A stretch of DNA of 64,000 bases from Gordonia sihwensis NBRC 108236 (GTDB taxonomy: Bacteria > Actinomycetota > Actinomycetes > Mycobacteriales > Mycobacteriaceae), in contig NZ_BANU01000007.1 in NCBI RefSeq assembly GCF_000333035.1, forward strand, positions 1 through 64,000. Direction: 5' to 3'. The notes beneath the pieces were generated by a model. The model was not told where the DNA came from and made no database searches. It worked only from the letters and a program-made list of their open reading frames with translations. The position numbers and the translations under genes are program-made. This document shows, piece by piece, positions 16,684-52,591 of the stretch (the first letter of the stretch is position 1; every line of letters starts with the position of its first letter).

Positions 16684-16689
16684 TAAGGG

Positions 16690-18170: not shown

Positions 18171-18190
18171 GGCGGCCCGCATCGCTGGCA

Positions 18191-18196
18191 TAGGGT
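18191..18196 (+). promoter_or_regulatory. -10 box of tesB, leaderless
   Basis: TAGGGT (18191-18196) lies six bases before the ATG of tesB. Confidence 0.5.
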
Positions 18197-18202
18197 TGTG
18201 GC

Positions 18203-19102: not shown

Positions 19103-19111
19103 GGCCCGAGA

Positions 19112-31029: not shown

Positions 31030-31104
31030 TCGAGAGTCCTTCGCTTGGGGAACGTGTTCTCGCGTCTGAAGGTAGACCGCAATAATGAATGGGTCAACCA
31101 ACAA

Positions 31105-37425: not shown

Positions 37426-40400
37426 ACCCCGGAGGTGATCGTGATCAGCAGGTCGCCGTTCTCCACCTGCGCCACCCCCGGCACCGCGATCCTGCCGACC
37501 ACGCCGCCCACCGGCGTGGTGATCGCCGCCTCCATCTTCATCGCCTCGATATGGGCGATCGTGTCGCCCGCGGCCACCTCGTCGCCTTCGGACACCTCCA
37601 GGGTGACCACGCCGGCGAACGGGGCGGGCACCTGACCGGGAACCGACGGATCGGCCTTCTCGGCCCGCGGCCGTGCGTCTTCGATCGAGCGGTCGCGCAC
37701 CTGGACCGGCCGCAGCTGGCCGTTGATCCAGCACATCACCGTGCGCATCCCGCGTTCGTCGGCTTCGGAGATCGACTCGAGGCCGAGAAGGAGCGTGACA
37801 CCGGGTCCGAGTTCCACGACGTGTTCGGTGCCGGGAACCAGACCGTAGAAGAACTCGCGGGTGCCGATCACCGAGGTGTCGCCGAAGGTCTCGCGGTGCT
37901 CGATGAATTCCCTGGACGGACCGGGGAACAGCAGCCGTGACAGTGTGGTCCGGCGCGTCTGCGAGTCGGCTGCGAGCCCGGCGCGGTCGTCGTCGGTCAG
38001 TTCGGCGAGCGGCGGTGCCACGGCCGGCGTGTTGCCGAGCGCCCGGGTGCGGAGCGGTTCGGGCCAACCCGCGGCCGGAGTGCCCAGCTCGCCGCGGAAG
38101 AACCCGGTGACCGACTCGGGGAGGTCGACCACCGTCGGATCGGCGGCGAACTGTTCGGCACTGACGCCCGAACCGACGAGAGCGAGGGCGAGGTCGCCGA
38201 CGACCTTCGACGACGGCGTCACCTTGATGAGGCGGCCGAAGGCCCGGTCGACACCGGCGTAGGCGCGTTCGATCTCCTCGAACCGGTCCGCGAGCCCCAG
38301 AGCGGTGGCCTGCGCACGCAGATTCGACAGCTGACCGCCCGGGATCTCATGGGTGTACACACGGCCGGTCGGAGCGGGGATGCCGGCCTCGAACGGGTGG
38401 TAGAGCCCGCGCATCGACTCCCAGTAGGGCTCGAGCTCGCAGACCGCGTCGAGGTCGATGCCGGTGTCGCGGTCGGTGTGGGCGGTCGCCGCGACCACCG
38501 CCGACATCGACGGTTGGCTGGTACCGCCCGACATCGGGGCCGCGGCCACATCGACCGCGTCCGCGCCGGCGTTCCACGCCGCGAGGTACGTCGCCAGCTG
38601 GCCGCCCGCGGTGTCGTGCGTGTGGACGTGAACGGGAAGGTCGAAACGCGACCGGAGGGCCGTCACGAGCGTGGTGGCGGCCGGGGCGCGCAGCAGCCCG
38701 GCCATGTCCTTGACGGCGATGATGTGCGCGCCGGCGTCGACGACGCGCTCGGCCAGCCGGAGATAGTAGTCGAGAGTGTAGAGATCCTCCGCCGGGTCCG
38801 TCAGGTCACCGGTGTAACAGAGGGCCACCTCCGCGACCGCAGTGCCGGTCGCGCGCACGGCGTCGATCGCCGGACGCATCTGGTCGACGTCGTTCAGCGC
38901 GTCGAAGATGCGGAAGATGTCGACGCCGGTGGCGGCGGCCTCGGCCACGAAGGCATCGGTCACCTCGGTGGGATAAGGGGTGTAGCCGACGGTGTTGCGT
39001 CCCCGCAACAGCATCTGCAGGCAGATGTTCGGCACCGCCTCGCGCAGTCGTGCCAGGCGGTCCCACGGATCCTCGTGCAGGAAACGCAGGGCGACGTCGT
39101 AGGTCGCACCGCCCCAGGCCTCGATCGACAGCAGTTCCGGGATACTCGAGGAGACGTGGCCGGCGACCGCGGTCAGGTCCTTGGTGCGGACGCGTGTGGC
39201 GAGCAGCGACTGGTGCGCGTCGCGGAAGGTGGTGTCGGTGATCGCCAGCGCCTTCTGCGCACGGAGATCGGCGGCGAAGCGTTCGGGGCCGAGGGTGGCG
39301 AGCCGCTGGCGGGAGCCCTCCGGCACGGATCGCTCGGATGCCGGCCGCGGCAGCTTGGAGGCCGGGTCCACGCCCGCCGGAGCCTTGCCGTTGGGGGAGT
39401 TGACCGTGATGTCGGCCAGGTAGTTCAGCATGCGTGTGCCGCGGTCGGCCGGAGCGTTGCCGTGCAGCAGCTCCGGATGCGCGGCGATGAAGCCGGTGTC
39501 GACGGCGCCGGACTGGAACGTCGGATCGTCGAGCACTGCGCGGAGGAACGGGATGTTCGTCGTCACCCCTCGGATCCGGAACTCCATCAGCGCGCGGCGG
39601 GCGCGGGCGAGCGCGATGTCGCGAGTGGACCCGCGGCAGGTGAGCTTGACCAGCATGGAGTCGAAGTAGGCGCCGACCTCCGCGCCGACCGTGGTCCCGC
39701 CGTCCAGGCGGACGCCGGCGCCGCCGGGCGACCGGTACGCCGTGATGCGTCCGGTGTCGGGCCGGAATTCGTTCGCGGGGTCCTCGGTGGTGATCCGGTA
39801 CTGCATGGCGGCACCGTGCAGCGCGATCGTGTCCTGCGACAGTCCGAGACCGGCGAGGGTGGCTCCGGCGGCGAGCTGCAACTGGGTCTGGACGAGATCG
39901 ACGTCGGTCACCTCTTCGGTGACGGTGTGCTCCACCTGGATGCGGGGATTCATCTCGATGAACACGTAGTCGCCGCTGGTGTCCAGGAGGAACTCGACCG
40001 TCCCGGCACAGGTGTAGCCGATGTGGCGTGCGTAGCGCACGGCGTCGGCGCACATGCGCTCGCGCAGGTCCGCGGGCAGGTCCGGAGCGGGTGCCTGCTC
40101 GATGACCTTCTGATGGCGACGCTGGACGGAGCAGTCGCGCTCATAGAGATGGACGACATCGCCGGTGGCGTCGCCGAGGACCTGGACCTCGATGTGCCGC
40201 GGCCCGCTCACCGCCTGCTCGATGTACACCGCACCGTCGCCGAACGCCGACTCCGCTTCGCGGGAGGCCTCTTCGAGCGCCGCGCGCAGGAGCGCGGGAT
40301 CGTCGACGAGGCGCATGCCGCGACCACCGCCGCCCGAGACGGCCTTGACGAAGACCGGGAAGGTCATCGACTCGCCGGCGTCCAGCAGCGTCTGCACATC

Positions 40401-40817
40401 GGTGGAGGGTTCGGTCGACGCCAGGACCGGGAGCCCGGCGGCGCGGGCTTCGGCGATCGCTCGAGACTTGTTGCCCGTCAGCTGAAGGACTTCGGCAGTC
40501 GGACCCACGAAGGTGATCCCGGCCGCGGCGCACGCCCGTGCGAGTTCGGGGTTCTCGGAGAGGAATCCGTATCCGGGGTAGACGGCGTCGGCACCGGATT
40601 CCTTCGCGACACGGATGATCTCGTCCACATCGAGGTAGGCCCGAACGGGATGCCCGGGCTCGCCGATCCGGTACGCCTCGTCTGCCTTGAACCGGTGGGG
40701 AGAGTTCCGGTCCTCGTGCGGGTACACCGCGACGGTGGTGATGCCCAGCTCGACGGCCGCGCGGAGGGCGCGGATCGCGATCTCGCCTCGGTTGGCGACA
40801 AGGATCTTGCGGAACAT
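37422..40817 (-). CDS. pyc: Pyruvate carboxylase
   Basis: A 1131-residue single-chain biotin enzyme converting pyruvate and bicarbonate to oxaloacetate. Order: biotin carboxylase (1 to about 450, KILVANRGEIAIRA, GGGGRGMR, EMNPRIQVEHTVTEEVTD), carboxyltransferase (about 520-820, DTTFRDAHQSLLATRVRT, HVHTHDTAGG), allosteric linker, and a C-terminal biotinyl domain with K1094 in EAMKMEA. The ATG at 40817 has AGGA 8 nt upstream; one five codons earlier overlaps the hydrolase stop (ATGA). Placement inside a catabolic locus is unusual. Confidence 0.5.
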   Translation of the reverse strand: MFRKILVANRGEIAIRALRAAVELGITTVAVYPHEDRNSPHRFKADEAYRIGEPGHPVRAYLDVDEIIRVAKESGADAVYPGYGFLSENPELARACAAAGITFVGPTAEVLQLTGNKSRAIAEARAAGLPVLASTEPSTDVQTLLDAGESMTFPVFVKAVSGGGGRGMRLVDDPALLRAALEEASREAESAFGDGAVYIEQAVSGPRHIEVQVLGDATGDVVHLYERDCSVQRRHQKVIEQAPAPDLPADLRERMCADAVRYARHIGYTCAGTVEFLLDTSGDYVFIEMNPRIQVEHTVTEEVTDVDLVQTQLQLAAGATLAGLGLSQDTIALHGAAMQYRITTEDPANEFRPDTGRITAYRSPGGAGVRLDGGTTVGAEVGAYFDSMLVKLTCRGSTRDIALARARRALMEFRIRGVTTNIPFLRAVLDDPTFQSGAVDTGFIAAHPELLHGNAPADRGTRMLNYLADITVNSPNGKAPAGVDPASKLPRPASERSVPEGSRQRLATLGPERFAADLRAQKALAITDTTFRDAHQSLLATRVRTKDLTAVAGHVSSSIPELLSIEAWGGATYDVALRFLHEDPWDRLARLREAVPNICLQMLLRGRNTVGYTPYPTEVTDAFVAEAAATGVDIFRIFDALNDVDQMRPAIDAVRATGTAVAEVALCYTGDLTDPAEDLYTLDYYLRLAERVVDAGAHIIAVKDMAGLLRAPAATTLVTALRSRFDLPVHVHTHDTAGGQLATYLAAWNAGADAVDVAAAPMSGGTSQPSMSAVVAATAHTDRDTGIDLDAVCELEPYWESMRGLYHPFEAGIPAPTGRVYTHEIPGGQLSNLRAQATALGLADRFEEIERAYAGVDRAFGRLIKVTPSSKVVGDLALALVGSGVSAEQFAADPTVVDLPESVTGFFRGELGTPAAGWPEPLRTRALGNTPAVAPPLAELTDDDRAGLAADSQTRRTTLSRLLFPGPSREFIEHRETFGDTSVIGTREFFYGLVPGTEHVVELGPGVTLLLGLESISEADERGMRTVMCWINGQLRPVQVRDRSIEDARPRAEKADPSVPGQVPAPFAGVVTLEVSEGDEVAAGDTIAHIEAMKMEAAITTPVGGVVGRIAVPGVAQVENGDLLITITSGV

Positions 40818-40828
40818 GACGGGGGTCC

Positions 40829-41752
40829 TCATTTCGGGGTGTGGGTCGGTGCGGTCAGGGCGAAGAGACGATGCACGGCCGACGACAGTTCGGTGTCGCG
40901 ATCGGCCAGGTCGACGAAGACGTCGAAGTGGTTCCGTCCGGGAACGGTCAGGAGCGGGCCGGCACTTCCGCGGGCCCAGTGCCGGTGGAAGTCCCGACTC
41001 TGCCGGCGGAAGCCGTCGGCCTCGTGCTCGGCCATGGCGATCACCGCCGGAGCGGGATCGTCGGGCAGCGGTGCGAGGGCCGGGCTGAGGTCGGCAGCGG
41101 ACTGCTCGGTCAGGAAGAGCCACTCGTTCGCCTCGGCGTGGATCAGCGGCCGCAGATCATAGAGTCCGCTGATCAGCAGGCCGGCGTGCACTGCGCGATC
41201 GGGCAGCCCGAGGTCAGCCTGCCAACCGCCGATCATGGTGGTCGCGGCGAGGTGAGCACCCGCCGAACTGCCGCAGACCACGATCCTGTTGCGATCGAGG
41301 CCGTGCGCGGGTCCGTCGCGATGCACCCATGCGACGGCCGCCCTGACTTGACGGACCATTTCGGGCAGGGAGGTCGCCGGAGCCAGTCCGTAGTCGACAG
41401 CGACAGTGGCGATACCGTGGTCGGCCAGCGTGCGCGCCATGAACGCGGTGTCCAGGCGTGACAGCGAGCGCCAGTATCCGCCGTGGATCACCAGGAATAC
41501 CGGACGGGGAGCGTCGGCGATCCCCCACACGTCGAGCACCTCGTCGCTGTGCTCGTCGTAGGCGACGCCGCGGGCGCCGGGCAGATCCCGGACTGCGCGC
41601 TCGGACCGCGTTCGGTAATCGTCCATCACCCTGGCGAAGGTTTCCGGGGACACGGTTCCGCGGGCGCTGTATGCGGCGGCGATCTCGGGGTCGAACAACG
41701 GGGCTCCTTCGAACGGCAACGAATCGTCTTCAGGGTCTGGCACGCAACTCAT
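40829..41752 (-). CDS. Alpha/beta hydrolase, kynurenine formamidase-like
   Basis: A 307-residue hydrolase with the esterase/lipase layout: oxyanion motif VIHGGYWRSLSR, nucleophile in VVCGSSAGAHLA, and catalytic His in PGRNHFDVF. HGGYW and GSSAG are characteristic of arylformamidase, which frees kynurenine from N-formylkynurenine upstream of 3-hydroxyanthranilate. That fits the divergent gene cluster, but the substrate could be another amide or ester. Its stop lies next to pyc. No kynureninase or tryptophan dioxygenase gene is present here. Confidence 0.5.
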   Translation of the reverse strand: MSCVPDPEDDSLPFEGAPLFDPEIAAAYSARGTVSPETFARVMDDYRTRSERAVRDLPGARGVAYDEHSDEVLDVWGIADAPRPVFLVIHGGYWRSLSRLDTAFMARTLADHGIATVAVDYGLAPATSLPEMVRQVRAAVAWVHRDGPAHGLDRNRIVVCGSSAGAHLAATTMIGGWQADLGLPDRAVHAGLLISGLYDLRPLIHAEANEWLFLTEQSAADLSPALAPLPDDPAPAVIAMAEHEADGFRRQSRDFHRHWARGSAGPLLTVPGRNHFDVFVDLADRDTELSSAVHRLFALTAPTHTPK

Positions 41753-41800
41753 ACCCGTCTAATACCGAACACGTACCCGACTATGCCATTTTTGCTATGA

Positions 41801-41818
41801 CGACCGGCACTCCGGTCG
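41801..41818. promoter_or_regulatory. Inverted repeat in the hydrolase/dehydrogenase divergent promoter
   Basis: CGACCGG-CACT-CCGGTCG, perfect 7-bp arms, lies centrally in the 159-bp AT-richer divergent spacer. Nearby AATACCGAA (41761) and TTTCGGTAT form a second, wide inverted pair. Possible LysR or IclR target. Confidence 0.5.
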
Positions 41819-41911
41819 GCGGTTGTGACCATCTCCGTTATGACTATTTCGGTATGTGAGTGATTCCGCTAGGTATTTGAACCACATGGCGATGCGGATC
41901 ACAGTGGATTC

Positions 41912-43387
41912 ATGACCGCACCCCACCCCGAATGGATTCGCAACTACGTCGACGGCGCATTCCTCGACCCCGATCCGGCGTCGGCGTTCGACGCGGTCGA
42001 CCCCGCCACCGGCACCGCGTACGCCAGGGTTCACGAGGCCGGAGCCGAGATCGTCGACCGTGCCGTCGGTTCGGCGCGACGTGCGCTGGCCGCCGGCTGG
42101 GCCGACCGGCCGGTCGCAGATCGGGCCCGGATCCTCCGTCGTGCCGCCGACCTGATCGAACAGCGCTTCGACGACTTCGTCGCCGCAGAGCTCGCCGACA
42201 CCGGCAAGCCGGTGACACAGGCGCGTGCCCTCGACGTCGCCCGCGCTCCGATGAACTTCCGCGCGTACGCCGACCTGGTGTCGAGCGCCGGCGAGCAGTC
42301 GTACCTGACCGACACCGCCGACGGTCGCCGAGCCCTGAACTACACGGTCCGCAAACCGCTCGGCGTGATCGCGATCATCGTCCCCTGGAACCTCCCGCTC
42401 CTGCTCCTCACCTGGAAAGTCGCACCGGCGCTCGCCTGCGGGAACGCGGTGGTGGTGAAGCCGAGCGAGGACACTCCCGCCACCGCCTCGCTGCTGGCCG
42501 AAGTGCTCGCGGAAGCCGGTCTGCCGCGCGGTGTGTACAACGTGGTCCACGGTTTCGGCGCCGATTCGGCCGGGGCGTTCCTGACCGAGCATCCCGGAAT
42601 CGACGGTGTCACCTTCACCGGATCGTCGGCCACCGGCAGTCACGTCATGCGGACGGTGGCGCCGCGGGTGCGGCCGGTCTCGCTGGAGCTCGGCGGCAAG
42701 AACGCGGCGATCGTCTTCGATGACGCGGACGTCGACGAGGCGGTCAAGGGACTGAGCCGGTCGATCTTCACCAACACCGGCCAGGTGTGTCTGTGCACCG
42801 AGCGCGTATACGTTCAGCGGCGGATCTTCGACGAGGTGGTCGCCGGCCTGGCGACCGAGGCCGCCTCGCTGCGGCTGGGAGATCCGTTCGACGAGGCGAC
42901 GACGACCGGCCCGCTCATCTCAGAGAAGCACCGGAGGAAGGTCCTGAGCTACTTCGACCTCGCCCGCGCGGAAGGCGCCGATGTGGTGTGCGGGGGCCGG
43001 GTCCCGGACGTGGGAGAGCACCTCGACGGGGGTTCGTGGATCGCGCCGACGCTGTGGACGGGCGTCGACAACAGCAGTCGCGTGATGCGCGAGGAGATCT
43101 TCGGCCCGGTGGCCGGTCTGGTCCCGTTCGACACCGAGGAGGAGGCGATCGCACTCGCCAACGACACCGAGTACGGGCTCGCGTCGGTTGTCTGGACCGA
43201 CGATCTGCGTCGCGGTCACCGCGTCGCCGCGCGGATGAACGTCGGGCTCTCGTGGGTCAACACCTGGTACCTGCGTGATCTGCGAGCCCCGTTCGGCGGC
43301 GTCGGGCTCTCCGGCATCGGCCGCGAGGGCGGAGAATCCTCGCTGCACTTCTACACCGAACCGACCAACGTCTGCCTGCAACTGTGA
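41912..43387 (+). CDS. nbaE: 2-aminomuconate/2-hydroxymuconate 6-semialdehyde dehydrogenase
   Basis: A 491-residue NAD-dependent aldehyde dehydrogenase. The family core is VPWNLPLLLLTWK, FTGSSATG, E259 in LELGGK and nucleophile C293 in NTGQVCLCTERVYV; the GQVCLCTERVYV and LSWVNTWYLRDLRAPFGG stretches are diagnostic for muconic semialdehyde dehydrogenases. With the decarboxylase NbaD and deaminase NbaF alongside, aminomuconate semialdehyde is the likely substrate. First gene of the plus-strand catabolic operon; the next gene begins in its stop region. Confidence 0.5.
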   Translation: MTAPHPEWIRNYVDGAFLDPDPASAFDAVDPATGTAYARVHEAGAEIVDRAVGSARRALAAGWADRPVADRARILRRAADLIEQRFDDFVAAELADTGKPVTQARALDVARAPMNFRAYADLVSSAGEQSYLTDTADGRRALNYTVRKPLGVIAIIVPWNLPLLLLTWKVAPALACGNAVVVKPSEDTPATASLLAEVLAEAGLPRGVYNVVHGFGADSAGAFLTEHPGIDGVTFTGSSATGSHVMRTVAPRVRPVSLELGGKNAAIVFDDADVDEAVKGLSRSIFTNTGQVCLCTERVYVQRRIFDEVVAGLATEAASLRLGDPFDEATTTGPLISEKHRRKVLSYFDLARAEGADVVCGGRVPDVGEHLDGGSWIAPTLWTGVDNSSRVMREEIFGPVAGLVPFDTEEEAIALANDTEYGLASVVWTDDLRRGHRVAARMNVGLSWVNTWYLRDLRAPFGGVGLSGIGREGGESSLHFYTEPTNVCLQL

Positions 43388-43422
43388 CCACCACACCTCC
43401 GTCCGAAGCGAAAGGACCGCAT

Positions 43423-44235
43423 ATGCACACCACCGACGACGAGGCGGCCGCGCTGGCCGGCCGTCTCGACCACGCCCAGACCAGATGTCGAGAGACCCCG
43501 AGCATCGAACGTGATCCCGCGATCGGTATCGCCTTCGACGTCGACCTCGCATATCGGGTGCAGGAAGAACTGATCGGGCTGCGAACGGCGCGCGGCGAGA
43601 GCGTGGTCGGAGTGAAACTCGGGTTCACCAGCAAGGCCAAGATGGCGCAGATGGGCGTCTCCGACGTCATCGTGGGCCGGCTCACCGACGCGATGACCGT
43701 CGCGAACGGCGGCACGGTGGACCTCGGGAAGTTCATCCACCCGAAGGCGGAGCCGGAGGTGGCGTATCTGCTCTCGCGCGATGTGCGCCTCGACGACCCG
43801 AACGAGGACATCCTCGACGCGGTCTCGGCGATCGCTCCGGCGGTGGAGGTCATCGACTCGCGTTATCTGGACTTCGCCTTCACCTACGCCGACGTGGTGG
43901 CCGACAACACCTCGGCGGCCGGATATGCGATCGGGGAGTGGTCGCCGCTGTGCGACGCGGCGGACCTCGACGTGACCCTGCGCGTCGGCGCCGACTCGGT
44001 GCACGGTTCCACCGCCGCGATCCTCGGCGATCCGGCTCAGGCCCTGCTCGCGCTCCTCGACATGTGCCGGCGGCGGCGCATTCCGCTCGAGGCCGGCCAC
44101 GTGATACTCGCCGGCGCGGCGACCGCCGCGCTGCCGCTCACCGCCTCCACGCCCGACGGCACGGACGTGCAGTGCACCGTCGAAGGACTCGGAACGGTCT
44201 CCTTCACGGCAGTCGGAGAGGCGGCCCGCCGATGA
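43423..44235 (+). CDS. nbaG: 2-oxo-3-hexenedioate (4-oxalocrotonate) decarboxylase
   Basis: A 270-residue member of the MhpD/DmpH superfamily. It shares the fold of the hydratase at 48685, with [43 protein letters not shown] and [12 protein letters not shown]. It should remove CO2 from oxalocrotonate to give 2-oxopent-4-enoate. ATG 43423 is preferred for its AAAGGA 8 nt upstream and DmpH-like length; a GTG at 43384 overlapping the dehydrogenase stop would add 13 residues. It overlaps nbaF by 4 nt. Confidence 0.5.
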
Positions 44236-44660
44236 GCGCCGCCGGCGCCGAGGCGCTCGTCGTCAGCGGAAAAGCCACCCCTCGAGGACGATTCCCGCAC
44301 GTGAAGACGGTCGGCGATCTGATCTTCGTCTCCGGCACCAGCTCGCGCCGTCCGGACAACACGTTCGTCGGCGTCGAGGTCGACGAGATGGGCACCGCCT
44401 CCCTCGACATCGAGGCGCAGACGCGAGCGGTGATCGAGAACATCCGCGACATCCTCGCCGAGGTCGGCGCCGGACTCGACGACCTCTGTCAGGTCACGGC
44501 CTACCTCGTGTCGATGAACGATTTCGGCGCCTACAACCGCGTCTACGGCGAGTACTTCGACGAGAACGGTCCCACGCGGACCACCGTCGCGGTGCACCAG
44601 CTCCCGCATCCGCACCTGCTCATCGAGATCCAGGCGATCGCACATCGCCGGCGGCCGTGA
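44232..44660 (+). CDS. nbaF: 2-aminomuconate deaminase (RidA family)
   Basis: A 142-residue YjgF/RidA-fold protein: [64 protein letters not shown], and [14 protein letters not shown]. Aminomuconate deaminases belong to this family and convert 2-aminomuconate to 4-oxalocrotonate with release of ammonia; the position between nbaG and nbaC supports that over a general RidA role. ATGA overlap with nbaG. Confidence 0.5.
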
Positions 44661-44693
44661 CTCGGCCACCCACTCACAACCCCAGGAGTTCCC

Positions 44694-45215
44694 ATGACGA
44701 CCATTCCGCCCGTCATCGATTTCCAGCGCTGGATCGACGACAACCGCCATCTGCTCAAGCCGCCGGTGAACAACCAGATGATGGCGCTCGGAGACGACTT
44801 CATCATTCAGGTGGTCGGCGGCCCCAACGAGCGCTACGACTACCACTACGAGCCGTACGAGGAGTGGTTCTACCAGCTCCGCGGCGACATCCACGTCAAC
44901 CTGATGACCGAGGACGGGCCGCGACGGGTCGATGTCCGGGAAGGGGAGACGTGGCTGATGCCTGCGAACATTCCGCATTCGCCGCAGCGGCCCGACCCCG
45001 ATTCGATCGGTCTGGTGATCGAGCGGGTCCGCAAGGAGGGCACGCTGGAGAAGTTCCAGTGGTATTGCCTGGAATGCCACACCAAGCTGCACGAGGTGGA
45101 GTTGCAGGTGCGCGACCTCGTCGAGGACATGCCTCCGGTCTTCGACTCCTTCGGTTCCGATGAGCAGGCCAGGACCTGCCGTGAATGCGGCGCCCTCCAT
45201 CCGGGGAAGGGCTGA
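44694..45215 (+). CDS. nbaC: 3-hydroxyanthranilate 3,4-dioxygenase
   Basis: A 173-residue cupin that opens 3-hydroxyanthranilate to 2-amino-3-carboxymuconate semialdehyde. The catalytic and Fe(II) residues fall at the positions known for the Cupriavidus enzyme: R47, H51, E57, H95 and R99. The second, rubredoxin-like iron site of bacterial members is also complete, with C125 and C128 in YCLECH and C162 and C165 in TCRECG. It starts 33 nt after nbaF with AGGAG upstream. This gene fixes the identity of the pathway. Confidence 0.5.
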   Translation: MTTIPPVIDFQRWIDDNRHLLKPPVNNQMMALGDDFIIQVVGGPNERYDYHYEPYEEWFYQLRGDIHVNLMTEDGPRRVDVREGETWLMPANIPHSPQRPDPDSIGLVIERVRKEGTLEKFQWYCLECHTKLHEVELQVRDLVEDMPPVFDSFGSDEQARTCRECGALHPGKG

Positions 45216-45216
45216 A

Positions 45217-46209
45217 GTGAGCGACATCATCGACGTCCACACCCACTATGTGCCGAAGGGATGGCCCGACCTGCGCGACGTCGCCGGTCCCGAAGCGCCG
45301 TGGCTGCGTGTGGAGTCCGAACGCGAGGCGATGATGATGACCGGCGACGTCGAGTTCCGCCGGATCCAGTCCGACGCGTGGGATCCGGAGGTGCGCCTGC
45401 GCGATATGGACGCGGACGGGGTGGCGACCCAGGTGGTCTCGCCGACGCCGGTGTTCTTCAATTACGCGAGGACCGGTGAACAGGCCGCGCGGATCTCCGC
45501 GGTGTTCAACGATCTCGCACTCGAGATCGTCGACGCGGCCGGCGAACGGATGATCCCGTTCTGTCAGGTGCCGCTGCAGGATCCCGATCTCGCATGCGAG
45601 GAACTCGACCGGTGCCTCGCCAACGGGCACCGCGGCGTCGAGATCGGCAACCACGTCGGCGATCGTGATCTGGACGACGAAGGCGTCGTCACCTTTCTGC
45701 AGCACTGCGCCGACCGCGACGTCCCCGTCTTCGTTCACCCCTGGGACATGGCGGGATCGCCGCGACTGGACCGCTGGATGGCGCGATGGCTGGTGGGGAT
45801 GCCCGCCGAGTCGCATCTGTCGATTCTGGCGATGATCCTCGGCGGCACCTTCGACCGAGTGGACGAGCGGCTCAAGATCGCCTTCGCGCACGGCGGCGGC
45901 TCGTTCGCCTTCTGGCTCGGTCGGATGGAGAACGCCTGGCATCGGCGCCACGATGTCATCGGCACCTCCGAATATCCACCGTCGCACTATCTCGGACGGT
46001 TCTACGTCGATTCGGTGGTCTTCGACGAACGCGCGTTGCGGCTGCTGGTCGACACGATCGGGCGCGACCGGGTGCTGGTGGGCAGCGACTACCCCTATCC
46101 GCTCGGAGAGCGGCCGGTCGGCGAAGTGGTGCGAAAGAGCGAATTCCTGGATTCGACCACCCGATCGCTGATCACACACGGGAACGCCGAGCGCTTCCTG
46201 GGACTCTGA
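45217..46209 (+). CDS. nbaD: 2-amino-3-carboxymuconate-6-semialdehyde decarboxylase (ACMSD)
   Basis: A 330-residue amidohydrolase-fold zinc decarboxylase. The metal site is H8 and H10 in IDVHTHYVPKG, a His in PVFVHPWDM, HGGGSF, and the Asp of VLVGSDYPYPLGE. It removes CO2 from the NbaC product before it can cyclise to quinolinate. The GTG at 45217 lies one base after the nbaC stop, with GGGGAAGGG upstream. Last gene of the first block; a 201-bp spacer follows. Confidence 0.5.
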   Translation: MSDIIDVHTHYVPKGWPDLRDVAGPEAPWLRVESEREAMMMTGDVEFRRIQSDAWDPEVRLRDMDADGVATQVVSPTPVFFNYARTGEQAARISAVFNDLALEIVDAAGERMIPFCQVPLQDPDLACEELDRCLANGHRGVEIGNHVGDRDLDDEGVVTFLQHCADRDVPVFVHPWDMAGSPRLDRWMARWLVGMPAESHLSILAMILGGTFDRVDERLKIAFAHGGGSFAFWLGRMENAWHRRHDVIGTSEYPPSHYLGRFYVDSVVFDERALRLLVDTIGRDRVLVGSDYPYPLGERPVGEVVRKSEFLDSTTRSLITHGNAERFLGL

Positions 46210-46410
46210 GTCTCCCCGCACCGGAGCCGGGCGGTGTCCGGCCGCCGGGTGGTGCGCCGACGGCCCGCTCCATCCCTATGCCCGCCGGGGCATCGGTACC
46301 GCGGCGAAAGGCATTTCTCACGCGCCGCCGTATGCCGTCTTCTGAATGTGACCCCGATTACTCAGCGTTCGTCGGCGTCGCCACCTCACCCCCATGAAAG
46401 GCCGATATCG

Positions 46411-47745
46411 ATGTTCACCAGATCCTCCGACAAGGCGCTGAGCGATCAGCAGGCGCGACGCCGGGTCGCCTCGGCGATGCTCGTCGGCACCACTCTCGAG
46501 TGGTACGACTTCTTCCTCTACGGCACAGCCGCCGCATTGATCTTCAACAAACAGTTCTTCCCGTCGTTGAGTCCCGCCGCAGGCACGCTCGCGGCCTTCA
46601 GCACGTTCGCCGTCGGCTTCGTCGCGCGTCCGCTCGGTGGCCTCGTCTTCGGTCACTTCGGCGACCGGGTCGGACGGCGGAACACGCTCATCGTCTCGCT
46701 CCTGATGATGGGTGCGGCCTCGACGCTGATCGGCGTGGTGCCCAACTACGGGTCCATCGGAGTGTGGGCGCCGGTCCTGCTGGTGCTGCTTCGCGTGGTC
46801 CAGGGGCTCGGTCTCGGCGGCGAGGGTGCCGGCGCCACGCTGATGTCGATGGAGCACGCGCCCGCAGGCAAGCGGAACCTCTACGCGGGTTTCCCGCAGA
46901 TGGGCACTCCCGCCGGACTGGTCCTGGCGAACGTCGTCTTCCTGACCACCAATGCGGTGATGCCGTCCGGAGCCTTCGACGCGTGGGGCTGGCGGATCCC
47001 GTTCCTGCTCAGCGCGGTGCTTGTGGTGATCGGTCTGGTGATCCGCCTGCACGTCGAGGAGTCGCCCTCGTTCAGCCGGGTCGTCAGTCACCGGGCCGTC
47101 GAGCGGTTCCCGCTGCGAGAGGCGATGCGCGTGGGTGTCGGGCGGATGGCACTGACGCTCGGCGTGATGATCGCGAACTCGGCGGTGGCCTACGTGTTCA
47201 TGGTCTTCACCCTCTCGTACGGCACCGAGCACCTCGATTACAGCCGTTCCTTCCTCATCGTCTGCGTCTCGGTCGCGGCCGTGATCTGGTTCGCGACCAT
47301 CCCGTTCTGGACTCGGATCGCCGACCGCAGCGGCCGGCGCTCCATGTTCGTCGGAGGGTCGGTCGCGCTGCTGATCTGGTGTCTGGTCTTCCTGCCGATG
47401 CTCGGCACGGGCAGTGCGGTGATCACCGCCGCGGCGTTCCTCGGGATGGGCGTCATCGTGCCGATCACGCACAGCGTCCAGGGCGCGATCATCGCCGACA
47501 CCTTCCCGGCCGCCGTCCGCTACTCGGGAACTTCGCTGATCCTGCAGGTCGGCGCGATTCTGGGCGGGGGACTGGCACCGATCATCTCTTCGGCGCTGGT
47601 CGGGGAGTCCGGTGGCGCCGCCGGCGTCACCGCGTATCTCGCCGTTGTCTGCCTGCTCAGCCTGGTGTGCGCGGTGGTTCTGTTCGCTCGGGTGCCGGAG
47701 CCGGAACCCGCTGCGGCGGCCGCCGCCGAAGGTGCGACCGTGTGA
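46411..47745 (+). CDS. MFS transporter, metabolite:H+ symporter (MHS) family
   Basis: A 444-residue carrier with about 12 helices. The MHS start RRVASAMLVGTTLEWYDFFLYGTAAAL is clear, then the loop 2-3 motif GHFGDRVGRRNTLI, RVVQGLGLGGEGAGA, and the second-half WTRIADRSGRRSMF. MHS relatives carry shikimate, proline, citrate and aromatic acids; from context it probably imports anthranilate-type or 3-hydroxyanthranilate-related acids. ATG 46411 has AAAGG upstream. A strong bidirectional hairpin follows. Confidence 0.5.
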   Translation: MFTRSSDKALSDQQARRRVASAMLVGTTLEWYDFFLYGTAAALIFNKQFFPSLSPAAGTLAAFSTFAVGFVARPLGGLVFGHFGDRVGRRNTLIVSLLMMGAASTLIGVVPNYGSIGVWAPVLLVLLRVVQGLGLGGEGAGATLMSMEHAPAGKRNLYAGFPQMGTPAGLVLANVVFLTTNAVMPSGAFDAWGWRIPFLLSAVLVVIGLVIRLHVEESPSFSRVVSHRAVERFPLREAMRVGVGRMALTLGVMIANSAVAYVFMVFTLSYGTEHLDYSRSFLIVCVSVAAVIWFATIPFWTRIADRSGRRSMFVGGSVALLIWCLVFLPMLGTGSAVITAAAFLGMGVIVPITHSVQGAIIADTFPAAVRYSGTSLILQVGAILGGGLAPIISSALVGESGGAAGVTAYLAVVCLLSLVCAVVLFARVPEPEPAAAAAAEGATV

Positions 47746-47764
47746 CGACTCGCGACACTCCGGC

Positions 47765-47807
47765 GACGAGGCGGGGCGGCCGATTCGATCGGCCGCCCCG
47801 CCTCGTC
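47765..47807. terminator. Bidirectional 20-bp hairpin between the MFS and iclR genes
   Basis: Arms 47765-47784 (GACGAGGCGGGGCGGCCGAT) and 47788-47807 are perfectly complementary around loop TCG. The right arm includes the first bases of the IclR stop region (TGA at 47808-47806). It can serve both convergent genes. Confidence 0.5.
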
Positions 47808-48612
47808 AACGCAGCGTGCGTCGACGGTCGAGGGTGGACGCGATCCCGGTCGCTGCGGCGCGGACCGCGTCGGTGTGCGCCTCGGGCCGGTACCGCGTGA
47901 GCGGGCCGGTCACGCTGACCGCGGCCACCACGGTGTTGTTCGCGACGTCCAGGATCGGCGCCGCAACGCACGCAATTCCGGGAGCCGACTCCTCGTACTC
48001 GAAGGCCGCTCCGGATTCGCGGATGGCATCGAGTTGGCGCGCCAGGATGCCCGGCGCGACGATCGTTCGCGGGGTGCGGCGGGGGAGCGGTCCGGCGAGG
48101 ACGCTCTGCTGCAGAGCGGGATCCGAGTGCGCCAAGAGTGCCTTGCCGATCCCCGTGCAGTGCAACGGCATCCGGCCGCCTGTGCGCGAGGGCGCGCTGG
48201 CCTGACGGTGACCGCCGATCTTCGCCACGTAGACCACCTCGTGGCCGTCGAGGACACCCAGGTGCACGGTCTCCCGGGTTCGCCCGTAGAGGTCCTGGAG
48301 GAAGGGCATCGCGATCTCCAGCAGACTGCGTTCCACCGACGCGAGCATCCCGAGTTCGAATAGGCCGCCGGACAGTCGGTACCCGTCGTCGGTTCGGTCG
48401 AGGAGCCGGACCCCGACGAGTTCACCGGCCAGCCGATGCACCGTCGCCTTGTGCAGACCGGTGCGGCGCACCAGTTCGGCGAGGCTCAGTTCGTTGTCGT
48501 CGACAGTGAAGGCCCGGAGGATGGTCACCACTTTGCCGACGACGGTGGCGCGGTCCACGGCGTGCTCGCCGTCGCCCGGATCCGACGGTTTCGAGGGCGT
48601 CGTTCTGGCCAT
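47806..48612 (-). CDS. IclR family transcriptional regulator
   Basis: A 268-residue regulator: winged HTH (about 20-85; VVTILRAFTVDDNELSLAEL, VRRTGLHKATVHRLAGEL) and IclR effector domain (about 100-260; GGRMPLHCTGIGKALLA, EYEESAPGIACVAAPI, AAVSVTGP). IclR proteins often control aromatic pathways. It is divergent from nbaH, and the 72-bp spacer holds a perfect 19-bp palindrome, so it very likely regulates nbaHJI and its own gene. Confidence 0.5.
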   Translation of the reverse strand: MARTTPSKPSDPGDGEHAVDRATVVGKVVTILRAFTVDDNELSLAELVRRTGLHKATVHRLAGELVGVRLLDRTDDGYRLSGGLFELGMLASVERSLLEIAMPFLQDLYGRTRETVHLGVLDGHEVVYVAKIGGHRQASAPSRTGGRMPLHCTGIGKALLAHSDPALQQSVLAGPLPRRTPRTIVAPGILARQLDAIRESGAAFEYEESAPGIACVAAPILDVANNTVVAAVSVTGPLTRYRPEAHTDAVRAAATGIASTLDRRRTLR

Positions 48613-48632
48613 GCGGACGACACTACCGCCTC

Positions 48633-48651
48633 CGTCTCGCTCAGCGAGACG
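48633..48651. promoter_or_regulatory. 19-bp perfect palindrome, IclR operator candidate
   Basis: CGTCTCGCT-C-AGCGAGACG, nine-base arms around one base, sits 21 bp before the iclR ATG and 34 bp before nbaH. The size and symmetry fit IclR-type operators. I did not see a second copy before nbaE or the MFS gene. Confidence 0.5.
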
Positions 48652-48684
48652 ACGCTCTTCTCTTCGGGCGGCGCAGCGGTGAGC

Positions 48685-49524
48685 ATGGTCACCATGACCG
48701 AGACCACCGAACGCGAACCGGCGCAGAATCCGGTCGCCGAAGACCAGGCCGCGCAGCGGCTGCTCACCGCCCTCCAGACCAGACAGGCGTGCACTCCGGT
48801 GCGCGACCTGATCGGACCCACGGATCTGGCCGCGGCCTACCGCGTCCAGGAACGGCTGACCGCGGGCCGGGTGTCCGGCGGCGCGACGATCGTCGGCCGC
48901 AAGATCGGCCTCACCTCTGCGGCCGTTCAAGACCAGATGGGCGTCGACCAGCCCGACTTCGGCGTCCTCTTCGACGACATGGCGTACGGCGACGGCGAGG
49001 TGGTTCCGATCGACCGGCTGCTGCAGCCCAAGGCCGAGGCGGAGGTCGCCTTCGTCTTGAAGAAGGATCTCGCCGACGGTCCGCTCGACATCGAACAGAT
49101 CCGCGATGCGATCGACTACGGCGTCGCCGCACTGGAGGTCTGCGACAGCCGCATCGACGGCTGGGACATCGCATTCGCCGACACGGTCGCCGACAACGCC
49201 TCCTCGGGGGTCTACGTCCTCGGCACCGACCGCAGGACGCTCGACGAGTTCCGTCCCGTCGACGTCGGCATGTCGATGCTCATCAACGGCGAGGAGGTCT
49301 CGACCGGTGAGGGCGCGGCCTGCCTCGGAGACCCGCTCAACGCCGTCGCCTGGTTGGCCCGGGCCGCCCGCGACTTCGGCGAACCCCTGCGCGCGGGTCA
49401 GGTGATCCTGTCCGGAGCGCTCGGCCCCATGCGCCCGATTCAACCCGGAGACGAGGTGACCGTCGTGATCGACGGCCTCGGATCGGTGAAAGCCCGTTTC
49501 AGTGAAGGGAACTCCCATGAGTAA
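48685..49524 (+). CDS. nbaH: 2-oxopent-4-enoate hydratase
   Basis: A 279-residue MhpD/DmpE-type hydratase adding water to 2-oxopent-4-enoate to give 4-hydroxy-2-oxovalerate. Signatures: [77 protein letters not shown] and [14 protein letters not shown]. It is paralogous to NbaG, from which it differs by the DFGVLFDDM loop. Start uncertain between GTG 48679, ATG 48685 and ATG 48694. Its last 8 nt overlap nbaJ. Confidence 0.5.
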
Positions 49525-50482
49525 GACGTCAGGCGGCAAGACGAAGGTCGCCATCATCGGCTCCGGCAACATCGGGACCGATCTGATGATCAAGGTGCTG
49601 CGGACCGCCAAGCACCTCGAGATGGGTGCGATGGTCGGCATCGATCCCGACTCCGACGGCCTGGCCCGCGCCCAGCGCCTCGGCGTGCCCACCACGCACG
49701 AAGGCGTCGAGGGTCTCGTCGCGATGCCGAACTTCGACGAGATCGAGATCGTCTTCGACGCCACCTCGGCCAAAGCCCACGAGCACAATGCGTCGATCCT
49801 GCAGCCGCTGGGCAAGCGGTTGATCGACCTGACGCCGGCGGCCATCGGACCGTACGTGGTGCCGGCGGTGAACATCGGCGACCATCTCGATGCGCAGAAC
49901 GTCAACATGGTGACCTGCGGCGGGCAGGCGACCATCCCGATCGTCGCCGCGGTGTCCCGCGTGGCGCCGGTCGCCTACGCCGAGATCGTCGCGTCCATCG
50001 CGTCCAAGTCGGCCGGACCCGGCACCCGCGCCAACATCGACGAGTTCACCGAGACCACGTCGGCGGCCATCGAGCAGGTCGGCGGGGCCCGCAACGGCAA
50101 GGCCATCATCATCCTGAACCCGGCCGAGCCGCCGCTGATCATGCGCGACACCGTGTATGCGCTGGTCGATGCGCCGGACCTGGACACTCAGGAGCGGATC
50201 CGCAATTCGGTCGAGAAGATGGTCGCGGACGTCTCCGCATACGTCCCGGGGTACCGACTGAAGCAGAAGGTACAGATCAACCCGATCGCCGAGGGGTCGC
50301 CGGTTCAGACGCTGATGACCCAGGAGCCGGAGTCGGCTCCCACCCACCAGGTGTCGGTCTTCCTCGAAGTCGAGGGTGCCGCGCACTATCTGCCGGCCTA
50401 TGCCGGGAACCTCGACATCATGACGTCCGCGGGCCTGCAGTACGCGGAGCGGATCGCAGCGCTGAAGGAGTCCAACGCATGA
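49517..50482 (+). CDS. nbaJ: Acetaldehyde dehydrogenase (acylating)
   Basis: A 321-residue enzyme oxidising acetaldehyde to acetyl-CoA with NAD and CoA. Rossmann motif [13 protein letters not shown], nucleophile C134 in [13 protein letters not shown], and the partner-contact region [10 protein letters not shown] match DmpF/BphJ. It works as a complex with the aldolase NbaI, which channels acetaldehyde to it. The ATG overlaps nbaH by 8 nt, and the stop overlaps nbaI (ATGA). Confidence 0.5.
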
Positions 50483-51504
50483 GCACCCCCATCTTCGTCC
50501 AGGACGTCACGCTGCGTGACGGCATGCATGCCATCCGCCATCAGATCAGCACCGACGACGTCAAGCGCATCGTCTCTGCGCTCGACGAGGCCGGCGTCGA
50601 CGCCATCGAGGTTGCGCACGGCGACGGTCTGGCGGGCGGCTCGGTGAACTACGGGCCCGGTTCCAACACCGACTGGGAGTGGATCGAGGCCGCGGCGAGT
50701 GTTCTGAAGAACGCACGGCTCACCACTCTGCTGCTGCCGGGCGTGGGCACTGTCGAGGAACTGAAGCACGCATGGGATCTCGGCGTCCGGTCGGTCCGCA
50801 TCGCGACGCACTGCACCGAGGCCGACGTCTCCGCACAGCACATCGCCGCGGCGCGGGAGATCGGCATGGACGTCTCGGGCTTCCTGATGCTCTCGCACAT
50901 GTCGACCCCCGAGAAGCTGGCGGAGCAGGCCAAGCTGATGGAGAGCTACGGCGCGCACTGCGTGTACATCACCGATTCGGGCGGACGCCTGACGATGAAC
51001 GACGTGGTCGCGCGAGTGAAGGCCTACCGGGCCGTGCTGAATCCGGAGACCGAGATCGGCATCCACGCTCACGAGAACCTCTCGCTGTCGGTCGCCAACT
51101 CGGTGGTCGCGGTCGAGAACGGCGTCTACCGCGTCGACGCCTCGCTGGCCGGCCACGGTGCCGGAGCGGGCAACTGCCCGATCGAGCCCTTCGTCGCCGT
51201 CGCGAATCTGTCGGGCTTCGAGCACCGCTGCGACCTGAACAAGCTGGAGGACGCGGCCGACGACATCGTCCGGCCACTGCAGGACCGCCCGGTCCGCGTC
51301 GACCGCGAGACGCTCACGCTCGGATACGCCGGCGTGTACTCGTCGTTCCTGCGTCACGCCGAGGCCGCGGCCAAACGGTACGACCTCGACGTGCGCGACA
51401 TCCTCACCGTGTGCGGTGAACGGCGTCTGGTCGGTGGCCAGGAGGACATGATCGTCGACATCGCCCTCACTCTGGTGGCGGAGCGCGACGGCGAGGTCGC
51501 CTAG
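50479..51504 (+). CDS. nbaI: 4-hydroxy-2-oxovalerate aldolase
   Basis: A 341-residue DRE-TIM metallo-aldolase, DmpG/BphI type, splitting 4-hydroxy-2-oxovalerate into pyruvate and acetaldehyde. [12 protein letters not shown] carries R13, D14 and H17; the Mn ligands are in GIHAHENL. The C-terminal communication domain [21 protein letters not shown] contacts NbaJ. Last gene of the catabolic operon, followed by a strong hairpin. Confidence 0.5.
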
Positions 51505-51518
51505 CATCTCGCTCAATT

Positions 51519-51559
51519 CGACGAAGCCCGCGCGGTCACCGACTGCGCGGGCTTCGTCG
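51519..51559. terminator. Hairpin terminator after the aldolase gene
   Basis: CGACGAAGCCCGCGC (51519-51533), 11-nt loop, GCGCGGGCTTCGTCG (51545-51559): perfect 15-bp stem. It can also serve the convergent coaE gene. Confidence 0.5.
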
Positions 51560-51643
51560 TGCCGAGCGGATACCGGACCCTGTCTGGCGTCGTCGGCGCT
51601 GATTCGACGGGCGACCGGAGTCTGACGCCCGCCACGCGAACCG

Positions 51644-52591
51644 CTACGCCGACGGCGCTACCGGACGCACGTGCACGCGGACCGGACGCGCCGGATCGGC
51701 GCTGGCGTGCAGGCGTTCGTCCTCGGACGACGACAGCCGCGGGAACCCGCCGTCGGCGAGTGCGTCCGCGAGCGAATCCGCGGAGCCGAGGTCGGCGACC
51801 GCCACCCGGATATCGATCACCGGTGGCGCCGACTGCCCGACGACGGCGGTCGGGCCGACGTGCTCGACCGCCGTCGCTCCGGCCCCGACCAGCGCCCATA
51901 CGCGGTTCACGACGCGGCGTCCCAATACGGCCCACCAAGGGTCGTACTCCTGTGGCCGTGTCGGCAGCTCGGCACAGACGCGGCCGGCAACGTTGTCGCG
52001 CAACGGAATCAATCGCTCGTTCCAGACGCGCAGAGCCTGAGCCGCGAGCTCGTCCGGGGTCCCCGAGTTGTCGAGCCAGATGTCGGCGACGTCTCGACGC
52101 TGGTCGTCCGTCGCCTGCGCCGCGATTCGGGACCGCGCGTCTTCGGGATCCATGCCGCGCAGATTCACCAGGCGGTCCAGCCGGACGTCCGCATCCGCGT
52201 GCACCACGGCGACCACGTGATAGAACGGCGCCATGTTCCCTTCGACGAGGAGCGGGACGTCGTGAAGGATGATCGCGTCGGCGGGCGCCGCGTCGGTGAG
52301 CTCCTGGGTCCGCGCGCCGATCAATGGATGCGTGATCGAGTTCAGGAGCTTGCGACTGTCGTCGTCGACGAATGCACGCGCCGCGAGGGCCGGACGGTCG
52401 AGAGCGCCGTCGGCGTCGAGGATCTCCGGTCCGAAGGCGTCGACGAGCTGAGCCAGACCCGGCGTGCCCGGCTCCACCACCTCGCGGGCGATGCGGTCGG
52501 CGTCGACGTGATACGCGCCGTGTTCGATGAAGGTCTTGGCAACCGTCGATTTGCCGGCGCCGATGCCGCCGGTGAGTCCCACTCTGATCAC
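51644..52591 (-). CDS. coaE: Dephospho-CoA kinase fused to a shortened GrpB-like domain
   Basis: A 315-residue protein. The kinase half (1 to about 200) phosphorylates dephospho-CoA in the last step of CoA synthesis: P-loop GGIGAGKST (8-16), DADRIAREVV, HPLIGART, LLVEG and LDNSG. The second half is a UPF0157/GrpB domain, as in mycobacterial CoaE: YDPWWAVLGRRVV, EHVGPTAVVGQSAPPVIDIRV, and VRVHVRP. It stops there, so roughly the last 60 residues of GrpB are missing. The GTG at 52591 aligns with the family start. Gene order rpsA-coaE is interrupted here by 16 kb. Confidence 0.5.
   Translation of the reverse strand: MIRVGLTGGIGAGKSTVAKTFIEHGAYHVDADRIAREVVEPGTPGLAQLVDAFGPEILDADGALDRPALAARAFVDDDSRKLLNSITHPLIGARTQELTDAAPADAIILHDVPLLVEGNMAPFYHVVAVVHADADVRLDRLVNLRGMDPEDARSRIAAQATDDQRRDVADIWLDNSGTPDELAAQALRVWNERLIPLRDNVAGRVCAELPTRPQEYDPWWAVLGRRVVNRVWALVGAGATAVEHVGPTAVVGQSAPPVIDIRVAVADLGSADSLADALADGGFPRLSSSEDERLHASADPARPVRVHVRPVAPSA

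Follow-up and report, generated by a model that had tools for sequence, protein, structure and literature searches.

The window analysed here, a stretch of 64,000 nucleotides from Gordonia sihwensis NBRC 108236, encodes the eight enzymes of the aminomuconate (nba) pathway that an earlier note had recognised, all on the plus strand at 41912-51504 and in the order E, G, F, C, D, then H, J, I. The first block is formed by nbaE (2-aminomuconate 6-semialdehyde dehydrogenase, 41912-43387), nbaG (4-oxalocrotonate, or 2-oxo-3-hexenedioate, decarboxylase, 43423-44235), nbaF (2-aminomuconate deaminase of the RidA family, 44232-44660), nbaC (3-hydroxyanthranilate 3,4-dioxygenase, 44694-45215) and nbaD (2-amino-3-carboxymuconate 6-semialdehyde decarboxylase, 45217-46209, with a likely GTG start); the second by nbaH (2-oxopent-4-enoate hydratase, 48685-49524), nbaJ (acylating acetaldehyde dehydrogenase, 49517-50482) and nbaI (4-hydroxy-2-oxovalerate aldolase, 50479-51504). 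The blocks are split, as had been noted, by the gene of an MHS-type (metabolite:H+ symporter) transporter (46411-47745, plus strand) and by the divergent gene of an IclR-family regulator, the partner of nbaHJI (47806-48618, minus strand), which is nearest to the PcaR/PcaU/PobR subfamily and below its cut-off. Across a divergent promoter region from nbaE (41753-41911) lies the gene of an alpha/beta hydrolase (40829-41752, minus strand; S163, E244, H275; HGGYW at 90-94), a proposed N-acyl-(3-hydroxy)anthranilate amidase. Two genes outside the earlier note continue this minus-strand row: pyc for pyruvate carboxylase (37422-40817; over the cut-offs of both NCBIfam PRK12999 and TIGR01235), which begins 11 nt after the hydrolase stop, and an nba-type LysR regulator gene (36478-37425), nearest to PcaQ and below its cut-off, whose start overlaps the pyc stop (ATGA).

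The diagnostic residues of NbaC, namely R47, H51, E57, H95, R99 and the cysteines C125, C128, C162 and C165, were found at the positions claimed for them, and all nine were invariant in 17 aligned sequences, that of the window included. We take the His/Glu/His set to be the Fe ligands and the two arginines to bind the substrate; the cysteines form the C-terminal site of the bacterial type. Moreover, NbaC scored 165 bits against PF06052 (cut-off 25), and its best solved relative was the 3-hydroxyanthranilate 3,4-dioxygenase 1yfu (E 9.9e-57). NbaD matched best the ACMS decarboxylase 6mgt (E 7.1e-102), and in an alignment with 6mgs/6mgt, read by eye, a His/His/His/Asp set, which are presumably the metal ligands of the Pseudomonas enzyme, and a His and two Arg, presumably its active site, were all identical. 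The best match of NbaE was 2-aminomuconate 6-semialdehyde dehydrogenase 4i1w (E 1.8e-183), with a score also over the profile cut-off of 2-hydroxymuconic semialdehyde dehydrogenase; that of NbaF was 2-aminomuconate deaminase 6izh (E 7e-55), the next being a RidA protein (1.8e-19); that of NbaG was 4-oxalocrotonate decarboxylase 8ih6_F (E 2.3e-59). NbaJ and NbaI exceeded the NCBIfam cut-offs of acetaldehyde dehydrogenase and 4-hydroxy-2-oxovalerate aldolase, respectively, and the nbaI product was the sole such aldolase over cut-off in the genome. NbaG and NbaH fell below the equivalog cut-offs of their own families, so their names rest on best match and context. The transporter, at 401.6 bits against an MHS subfamily cut-off of 443.45, is likely to serve aromatic-acid uptake. 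With these qualifications for G and H the set from C to J is complete, and residues, profiles and best solved matches together make it well supported that the eight enzymes constitute the known aminomuconate route, leading from 3-hydroxyanthranilate to pyruvate and acetyl-CoA as the earlier note had read it. The route alone is ordinary, since near full-length NbaC occurs in 42 of the 401 genomes of the window's family.

Gene content across Gordonia indicates that the eight nba genes are not one unit. The IclR-nbaHJI group, a Gordonia module, occurs also in Gordonia genomes without nbaC, and the hydrolase gene, nbaEGFCD and the transporter gene form a block of about 7 kb adjoining it. In a close relative (G405), 6.97 kb corresponding to 40835-47805 is missing between matching flanks, the hydrolase along with the cassette; this assembly consists of 280 contigs and is 94% complete, and the absence of nbaC refers to this locus. 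We propose that the nbaHJI module is older than the cassette docked beside it, although the gap in G405 could be a loss instead of the arrangement before insertion. A palindrome with 9-base arms, CGTCTCGCT-C-AGCGAGACG (48633-48651), is a candidate IclR operator: it is the single mismatch-free site in the window, and it was kept in all 10 Gordonia IclR-nbaH gaps examined. The hydrolase-nbaE gap lacks this palindrome even at three mismatches, which speaks against control of the entire gene set by IclR; this is weak evidence, as IclR sites vary. No shared palindrome emerged in the hydrolase-nbaE gap either: a perfect 12-base inverted repeat was present in locus L151 only, that of the window differs and is imperfect, and no consensus resulted. 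A promoter and terminator scan of 40700-52000 found nothing, and the single-strand fold of the palindrome region was unremarkable (z -1.10). The LysR protein, of the type commonly found with nba genes (a homolog with at least 45% identity is present in 61 of 80 actinobacterial nba loci), is probably the cassette's own regulator. Since the LysR, hydrolase and pyruvate carboxylase genes stand in one row, synthesis of pyruvate carboxylase may increase together with that of the pathway enzymes, whose pyruvate it would convert to oxaloacetate.

The nearest plasmid homolog of the hydrolase, 52% identical over 93%, directly follows meqE on plasmid pAL1 and has Ser/Glu/His at 155/235/266, which we take to be the numbering of the N-acetylanthranilate amidase Amq; from its position after meqE and this numbering, the pAL1 hydrolase is a candidate for Amq. 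The residues S163, E244 and H275 of the window hydrolase align with S155, E235 and H266 of pAL1. Position 244 is Glu in six and Asp in four of the ten rows of the hydrolase alignment (A2), and the triad cannot tell the Amq type from the kynU-linked type, because one kynU-linked row (L143) shares all three residues. In the tree, the window hydrolase belongs to a branch of 22 rows with 100/100 support, which holds the pAL1 hydrolase and all 11 nba-linked hydrolases included; the seven kynU-linked rows all lie outside. These seven are six rows labelled so and L141, labelled 3HAO in the tree, in which a tryptophan dioxygenase gene and kynU lie downstream of the hydrolase. Nba-linked near-copies or rows from the same genomes (L032, L037, L043, L044, L046, L071, L073, L079) were omitted, as were L089 and L080, and 10 further rows were taken from the best 120 homologs listed, including P0170, which represents the hydrolase of Saccharopolyspora elongata (L053). 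We propose from these relationships that the hydrolase acts on N-acyl (or ester) conjugates, from which it would release (3-hydroxy)anthranilate. It might also be a formamidase or a plain esterase, because the family includes kynU-linked members, 36-39% identical, and because the best solved relatives are 'Lipase 1' (E 2.1e-21) and, second, a kynurenine formamidase (E 1.9e-16). AqdA, considered as a possible relative, is called a carboxylesterase type B in one paper (PMC5332414), by name a different family.

The earlier note had taken the formamidase-like hydrolase to suggest that the compound comes from kynurenine. The hydrolase shares the fold family and the HGGYW and GxSxG-type motifs with the kynurenine formamidases (arylformamidases) among the alpha/beta hydrolases, it aligns with a solved kynurenine formamidase through the HGGYW and SAGAHL stretches, and several sources label its relatives arylformamidase. 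The genome, however, which is rated 100% complete, contradicts a feed from kynurenine or tryptophan unless kynureninase is non-homologous: when the search for kynU and tdo was extended beyond the window, as the earlier note had proposed, the best kynureninase match scored 32.9 bits, far below the cut-off of 246.4, and a search for tryptophan dioxygenase gave zero matches (2 of 14 control genomes match). Neither enzyme was found over cut-off in any of the eight NbaC-bearing Gordonia genomes, the window's and seven others. The hydrolase branch excludes the seven kynU-linked hydrolases of the tree, and the linkage of genes agrees: kynU occurs in 15 of the 80 nba loci, in none of the 14 with a hydrolase at least 50% identical to that of the window and in all seven with one 36-39% identical (counts from tblastn; ORF-caller clustering caught only 9 of the 15 kynU loci). 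Among the 14 NbaC-bearing genomes that could be tied to such a hydrolase, however, two, Rhodococcus oryzae (G021) and R. maanshanensis (G064), do encode elsewhere a tryptophan dioxygenase and a kynureninase that comes close to the cut-off (231 and 233 of 246 bits). Judged by the known enzyme families, tryptophan via kynurenine is not the source in G. sihwensis, and we regard the reading in which kynurenine or tryptophan feeds the pathway and the hydrolase is a kynurenine formamidase as very improbable. A purpose of NbaC in NAD synthesis, checked by a NadA search only, is unlikely as well, because the genome has NadA and the precursor of quinolinate would be lost to NbaD.

Of 59 Gordonia genomes, six have the hydrolase (E <= 1e-40); each of the six also bears NbaC, with the hydrolase gene about 3 kb from nbaC. 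At the same threshold, 2 of the 8 NbaC-bearing Gordonia genomes have no such hydrolase, and in 66 of the 80 nba loci none at least 50% identical is within reach, so it is a non-obligate part. On two alphaproteobacterial plasmids, 4-6 kb separate a 43-49% identical hydrolase from the gene of a 3-hydroxyanthranilate dioxygenase; the cluster there is a different one, and kynU is absent from the stretch examined on both. Among open-licence papers, titles and abstract openings gave no earlier report of the hydrolase-nba link. Free 3-hydroxyanthranilate released by other organisms might instead enter through the MHS transporter, the hydrolase having a side activity or acting on unrelated esters. The 66 loci would fit this, as would the transporter gene following nbaD, the lack of recognised upstream enzymes beside the cassette, and the genome-wide result for kynU, tryptophan dioxygenase and HpaB-type hydroxylase, all below cut-off or absent. 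We consider it unlikely, however, given that the hydrolase in Gordonia is found only in NbaC-bearing genomes and adjoining nbaC, groups with the amidase candidate of pAL1 in the tree, and is missing with the cassette in G405.

The S. elongata locus carries a row of a MeqE-like gene (47% identity over 230 aa), the hydrolase, a LysR gene, a flavin-dependent-monooxygenase-like frame, a flavin reductase and nbaEHJIGFCD. The frame and the reductase, between the LysR gene and nbaE, speak for anthranilate as the source. It would stem from N-acylanthranilates, quinolones or further precursors; the hydrolase would release it, and a monooxygenase with its gene at another place in the genome would hydroxylate it to 3-hydroxyanthranilate. 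A Geobacillus pathway via anthranilate hydroxylation has been described (PMC4539516). Against such a source, which we consider unlikely, no hydroxylase of this kind was recognised near the cassette, and an HpaB_N search of the genome gave two weak matches (L123 and L124), neither over cut-off, which by eye resemble acyl-CoA dehydrogenases. Against the amidase proposal, no enzyme making N-acyl-3-hydroxyanthranilate was recognised near the cassette. In Pseudomonas fluorescens KU-7 the nba genes reportedly serve 2-nitrobenzoate degradation, and the lower pathway gene set is the same; among the proteins scanned beside the cassette, however, no nitroreductase or mutase was recognised, and 2-nitrobenzoate as the substrate appears hardly credible.

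We therefore favour, as the probable explanation, a catabolic cassette for 3-hydroxyanthranilate that is headed by an amidase and has docked next to a lower pathway of greater age. The transporter would import the substrate, a conjugate that is either N-acylated (with acetyl, formyl or a similar group) or an ester; the hydrolase would cleave it to release 3-hydroxyanthranilate or, alternatively, anthranilate, to be hydroxylated by some unlinked enzyme. By homology, NbaC would open the ring, NbaD decarboxylate, NbaE oxidise, NbaF remove ammonia and NbaG decarboxylate again, and the product would pass to NbaH, NbaI and NbaJ of the IclR-linked module, giving pyruvate and acetyl-CoA; LysR probably controls the cassette, and pyruvate carboxylase may turn the pathway pyruvate into oxaloacetate. 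More tentatively, the locus could represent an undescribed unit for N-acylated 3-hydroxyanthranilates, in which amidase, nbaEGFCD, transporter and LysR were plugged in beside the resident IclR-nbaHJI and pyruvate carboxylase was captured between amidase and regulator, so that its anaplerotic step would be induced along with the pathway. The analysis removes the tryptophan reading for this widespread gene set as far as Gordonia is concerned and puts in its place a proposed class of substrates, conjugates in which 3-hydroxyanthranilate or anthranilate is N-acylated or esterified, possibly originating from quinolones or microbial metabolites; the locus also exemplifies a catabolic cassette adjoining a ready-made lower pathway, of which a cassette-free arrangement exists in a close relative.

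Actinobacterial nba clusters (Rhodococcus, Streptomyces, Nocardia, Prescottella, Saccharopolyspora and others) share with the window the nba-type LysR (61 of 80 loci) and the order nbaE, nbaF, nbaC (80 of 80 loci, with nbaD next in 79); many of them, however, have nbaHJI inside the operon or beyond the examined flank, whereas in the window it is a separate IclR module by coaE. In the quinaldine (meq) pathway of Arthrobacter Rue61a, the pAL1 hydrolase has the same active-site residues and its gene lies directly after the quinolone dioxygenase gene, as does the related one in S. elongata. In that pathway anthranilate is channelled through CoA esters, and 3-hydroxyanthranilate does not support growth of the strain (PMC3534580). 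By contrast, 3-hydroxyanthranilate is the hub in G. sihwensis, and no quinolone dioxygenase gene is linked to its cassette; a search of the G. sihwensis genome, run without a positive control, found no MeqE-like gene. The nba pathway for 2-nitrobenzoate, 3-hydroxyanthranilate and aminomuconate is known from Pseudomonas and Burkholderia, where the same enzymes perform every step from ring cleavage onwards, ending in pyruvate and acetyl-CoA, and NbaC, D, E and F match its solved enzymes best. Compared with that system, no kynU or nitrobenzoate genes were recognised beside the Gordonia cassette, and the Gordonia locus adds the linked hydrolase, LysR and pyruvate carboxylase, with its lower genes forming a separate IclR-linked module.

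The eight enzymes of a complete 3-hydroxyanthranilate pathway, for which the earlier note had claimed the order NbaE, G, F, C, D and then H, J, I, are encoded in exactly that order at 41912–51504, and the active-site residues first named for NbaC, the 3-hydroxyanthranilate 3,4-dioxygenase (3-HAO), proved correct by alignment and a check of the sequence. The best solved relative was the matching pathway enzyme for NbaC, NbaD, NbaE, NbaF and NbaG, and acetaldehyde dehydrogenases for NbaJ; NbaI and NbaJ passed the curated cut-offs, NbaG and NbaH scored under their equivalog cut-offs, and NbaI is the sole aldolase of its type over the cut-off in the whole genome (4.14 Mb, 64 contigs, completeness rating 100%). 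The nbaG/nbaF and nbaJ/nbaI junctions share an ATGA, nbaH and nbaJ overlap by a few codons, and one base separates nbaC from nbaD, taking the GTG start.

By itself this pathway is ordinary, because NbaC relatives and the nbaE-F-C(-D) order are widespread. At least 8000 candidate relatives of NbaC were scored, every one at E ≤ 1e-10, and a species-level genome collection held 486 loci coding one. Loci were compared in the best 80 of these 486, which are non-independent samples, some of them shortened by contig ends. In these best 80, nbaE-nbaF-nbaC was kept in all, nbaD directly followed nbaC in 79 (with a two-base overlap in two), and the closest named locus to that of the window, by NbaC, was from G. 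hydrophobica (85% identity). A 3-HAO search of 401 genomes in the family of the window matched 58 at E ≤ 0.001: in 42 the match ran over almost the whole length, in one (G193) it was split in two, and in 15 it was weak or short.

The nba genes are divergent to a 307-aa α/β hydrolase (40829–41752, minus strand), a proposed N-acyl-(3-hydroxy)anthranilate amidase, which was present in 6/59 Gordonia genomes, about 3 kb from nbaC in those six; two NbaC-bearing Gordonia (G129, G211) were without it. The IclR-nbaHJI module occurs also without nbaC. NbaI at ≥86% identity within 4 kb of coaE was found in 8/31 Gordonia genomes, of which three (G000, G182, G352) had NbaC; in the family search of 401 genomes G008 and G057 were listed without NbaC and G315 was absent from the NbaC matches, and G405 and G406, which lay outside that search, showed no nbaC in the stretch examined and no hydrolase at E ≤ 1e-40. 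In G405, neighbouring DNA matched window positions 37442–40834 at 80% and 47806–51560 at 83%, with 923 bp in place of 40835–47805, and lysR was missing from the stretch examined. Given this gap between matching flanks, hydrolase, nbaEGFCD and the MHS transporter gene are here present or absent together, by gain or loss. In one Gordonia nba locus without the hydrolase (L049, 11580–17264), the genes that follow code for a globin-domain protein, a luciferase-like monooxygenase, a flavin reductase and a riboflavin-synthesis protein, possibly another upstream route.

Next on the minus strand, 11 nt past the hydrolase stop, comes the pyruvate carboxylase gene (pyc), which lies between the hydrolase and an nba-type lysR (pyc and lysR together, 36478–40817, minus strand); the lysR start (36478–37425, minus strand) overlaps the pyc stop in an ATGA. 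This LysR shares 78% identity with the nba-adjacent LysR protein of G. malaquae and 70% with that of R. erythropolis. Among the best 80 of the 486 loci, a LysR homolog at ≥45% occurred in 61, and pyc near the nba genes in only one, G. hydrophobica, where the order is hydrolase, lysR, pyc, with pyc and lysR swapped relative to the window. Between iclR and nbaH we found a palindrome with 9-base arms, CGTCTCGCTCAGCGAGACG (48633–48651), which recurred with at most one mismatch, on the better strand, in 10/10 IclR-nbaH gaps examined in Gordonia, whether or not nbaC was present; the pattern was drawn from the same ten gaps, thus the count shows conservation and is no independent test. In the hydrolase-nbaE gap nothing matched it at up to three mismatches, and the only further weak site of the window, at 59787 with three mismatches, is within chance expectation. 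The simplest reading would be two separate controls, LysR acting on the cassette and IclR on nbaHJI.

The IclR-nbaHJI module could also serve a BphC/HsaC-like extradiol dioxygenase (30121–31104, minus strand; best match TIGR03213 with 251 bits, under the cut-off), encoded some 17 kb away from it and next to a divergent gene for a MarR-type regulator (31158–31610, plus strand). Upstream on the contig, window positions 2000–20000 hold genes resembling histidine and tryptophan biosynthesis, judged by their protein starts.

The earlier note had taken the formamidase-like hydrolase as a hint of a kynurenine source. Among solved relatives, 'Lipase 1' was best and kynurenine formamidase second. The nearest plasmid relative (52% over 93% of the length) lies directly after the quinolone dioxygenase gene meqE on pAL1 of Arthrobacter Rue61a; its Ser, Glu and His stand at 155, 235 and 266, which we take to be the matching positions in the numbering of the N-acetylanthranilate amidase Amq. 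Arthrobacter Rue61a is known for an N-acetylanthranilate amidase, described in the title of a paper by Kolkenbrock et al. that PMC3534580 cites. In a maximum likelihood tree of 35 sequences, where the long branches L143, L141 and L140 make exact positions unsure, one branch of 22 (100/100), its inner order only partly resolved, took in 11 nba-linked sequences and that of pAL1. Outside it fell five kynU-linked Streptomyces sequences, a Deinococcus sequence linked to kynU-kynA, and L141 from Ensifer, which groups with the Streptomyces ones (97/93) and has a tryptophan dioxygenase gene and kynU directly after the hydrolase, so that seven kynU-linked sequences lie outside, in two places. The grouping with pAL1 and the nba-linked sequences thus speaks against the proposed link to kynurenine.

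The closest neighbours outside the branch (97/90) were two alphaproteobacterial plasmid hydrolases, 4–6 kb from a 3-hydroxyanthranilate dioxygenase gene and with no kynU in the stretches examined around them. The alphaproteobacterial plasmid clusters L139 (8947–18800) and L138 (1897–9831) hold the dioxygenase, a dihydrodipicolinate-synthase-family gene, an ABC transporter and the hydrolase, with a molybdenum hydroxylase additionally in L139 and an aspartate dehydrogenase in L138: a different route with the same two enzyme types, dioxygenase and hydrolase.

The distribution of the kynurenine genes was followed in loci and genomes. Among the best 80 of the 486 loci, the hydrolase was present at ≥50% identity in 14 and at 36–39% in seven; kynU, found in 15 of the 80, accompanied 0/14 of the former and 7/7 of the latter. 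The genome of the window has no kynureninase over the cut-off (best 32.9 bits against 246.4) and no tryptophan dioxygenase match, and the hint was not borne out there either. As NadA is present, NAD could be made without NbaC. Over the 43 NbaC-bearing family genomes checked (G193 included), kynureninase exceeded the cut-off in 10 and fell just short of it in two more, and tryptophan dioxygenase matched in 11, the NbaC-bearing Gordonia giving 0/8 for each. Fourteen NbaC-bearing genomes were tied to a ≥50% identical hydrolase (six Gordonia; G009, G039, G058, G075, G091; G022; G021, G064), and 12 had neither enzyme; G021 and G064 had tryptophan dioxygenase and a near-cut-off kynureninase, both away from the nba genes. 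For the hydrolase as an amidase, we infer an acyl group, a donor compound and a transport step.

A locus of Saccharopolyspora elongata (L053, 1–4600 and the nba operon) carries, in order, a MeqE-like gene, the hydrolase (58% to that of the window), an nba-type LysR, a flavin-dependent-monooxygenase-like region (Pfam Acyl-CoA_dh_2, 130 bits; frame break near the start), a flavin reductase and nbaE, H, J, I, G, F, C, D. The MeqE-like gene, cut by the locus end, shows 47% over 230 aa; for comparison, the named quinolone dioxygenase AqdC1 shares 46% identity with MeqE. This order would be expected if a quinolone-type ring gave N-acylanthranilate, followed by deacylation and ring hydroxylation to 3-hydroxyanthranilate. 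A MeqE-like gene was found in none of the other 79 of the best 80 loci, nor in the genome of the window, in a search run without a positive control. Whereas the ring-opening and hydroxylating enzymes were not recognised beside the Gordonia cassette, the hydrolase is common to it and to the Saccharopolyspora locus.
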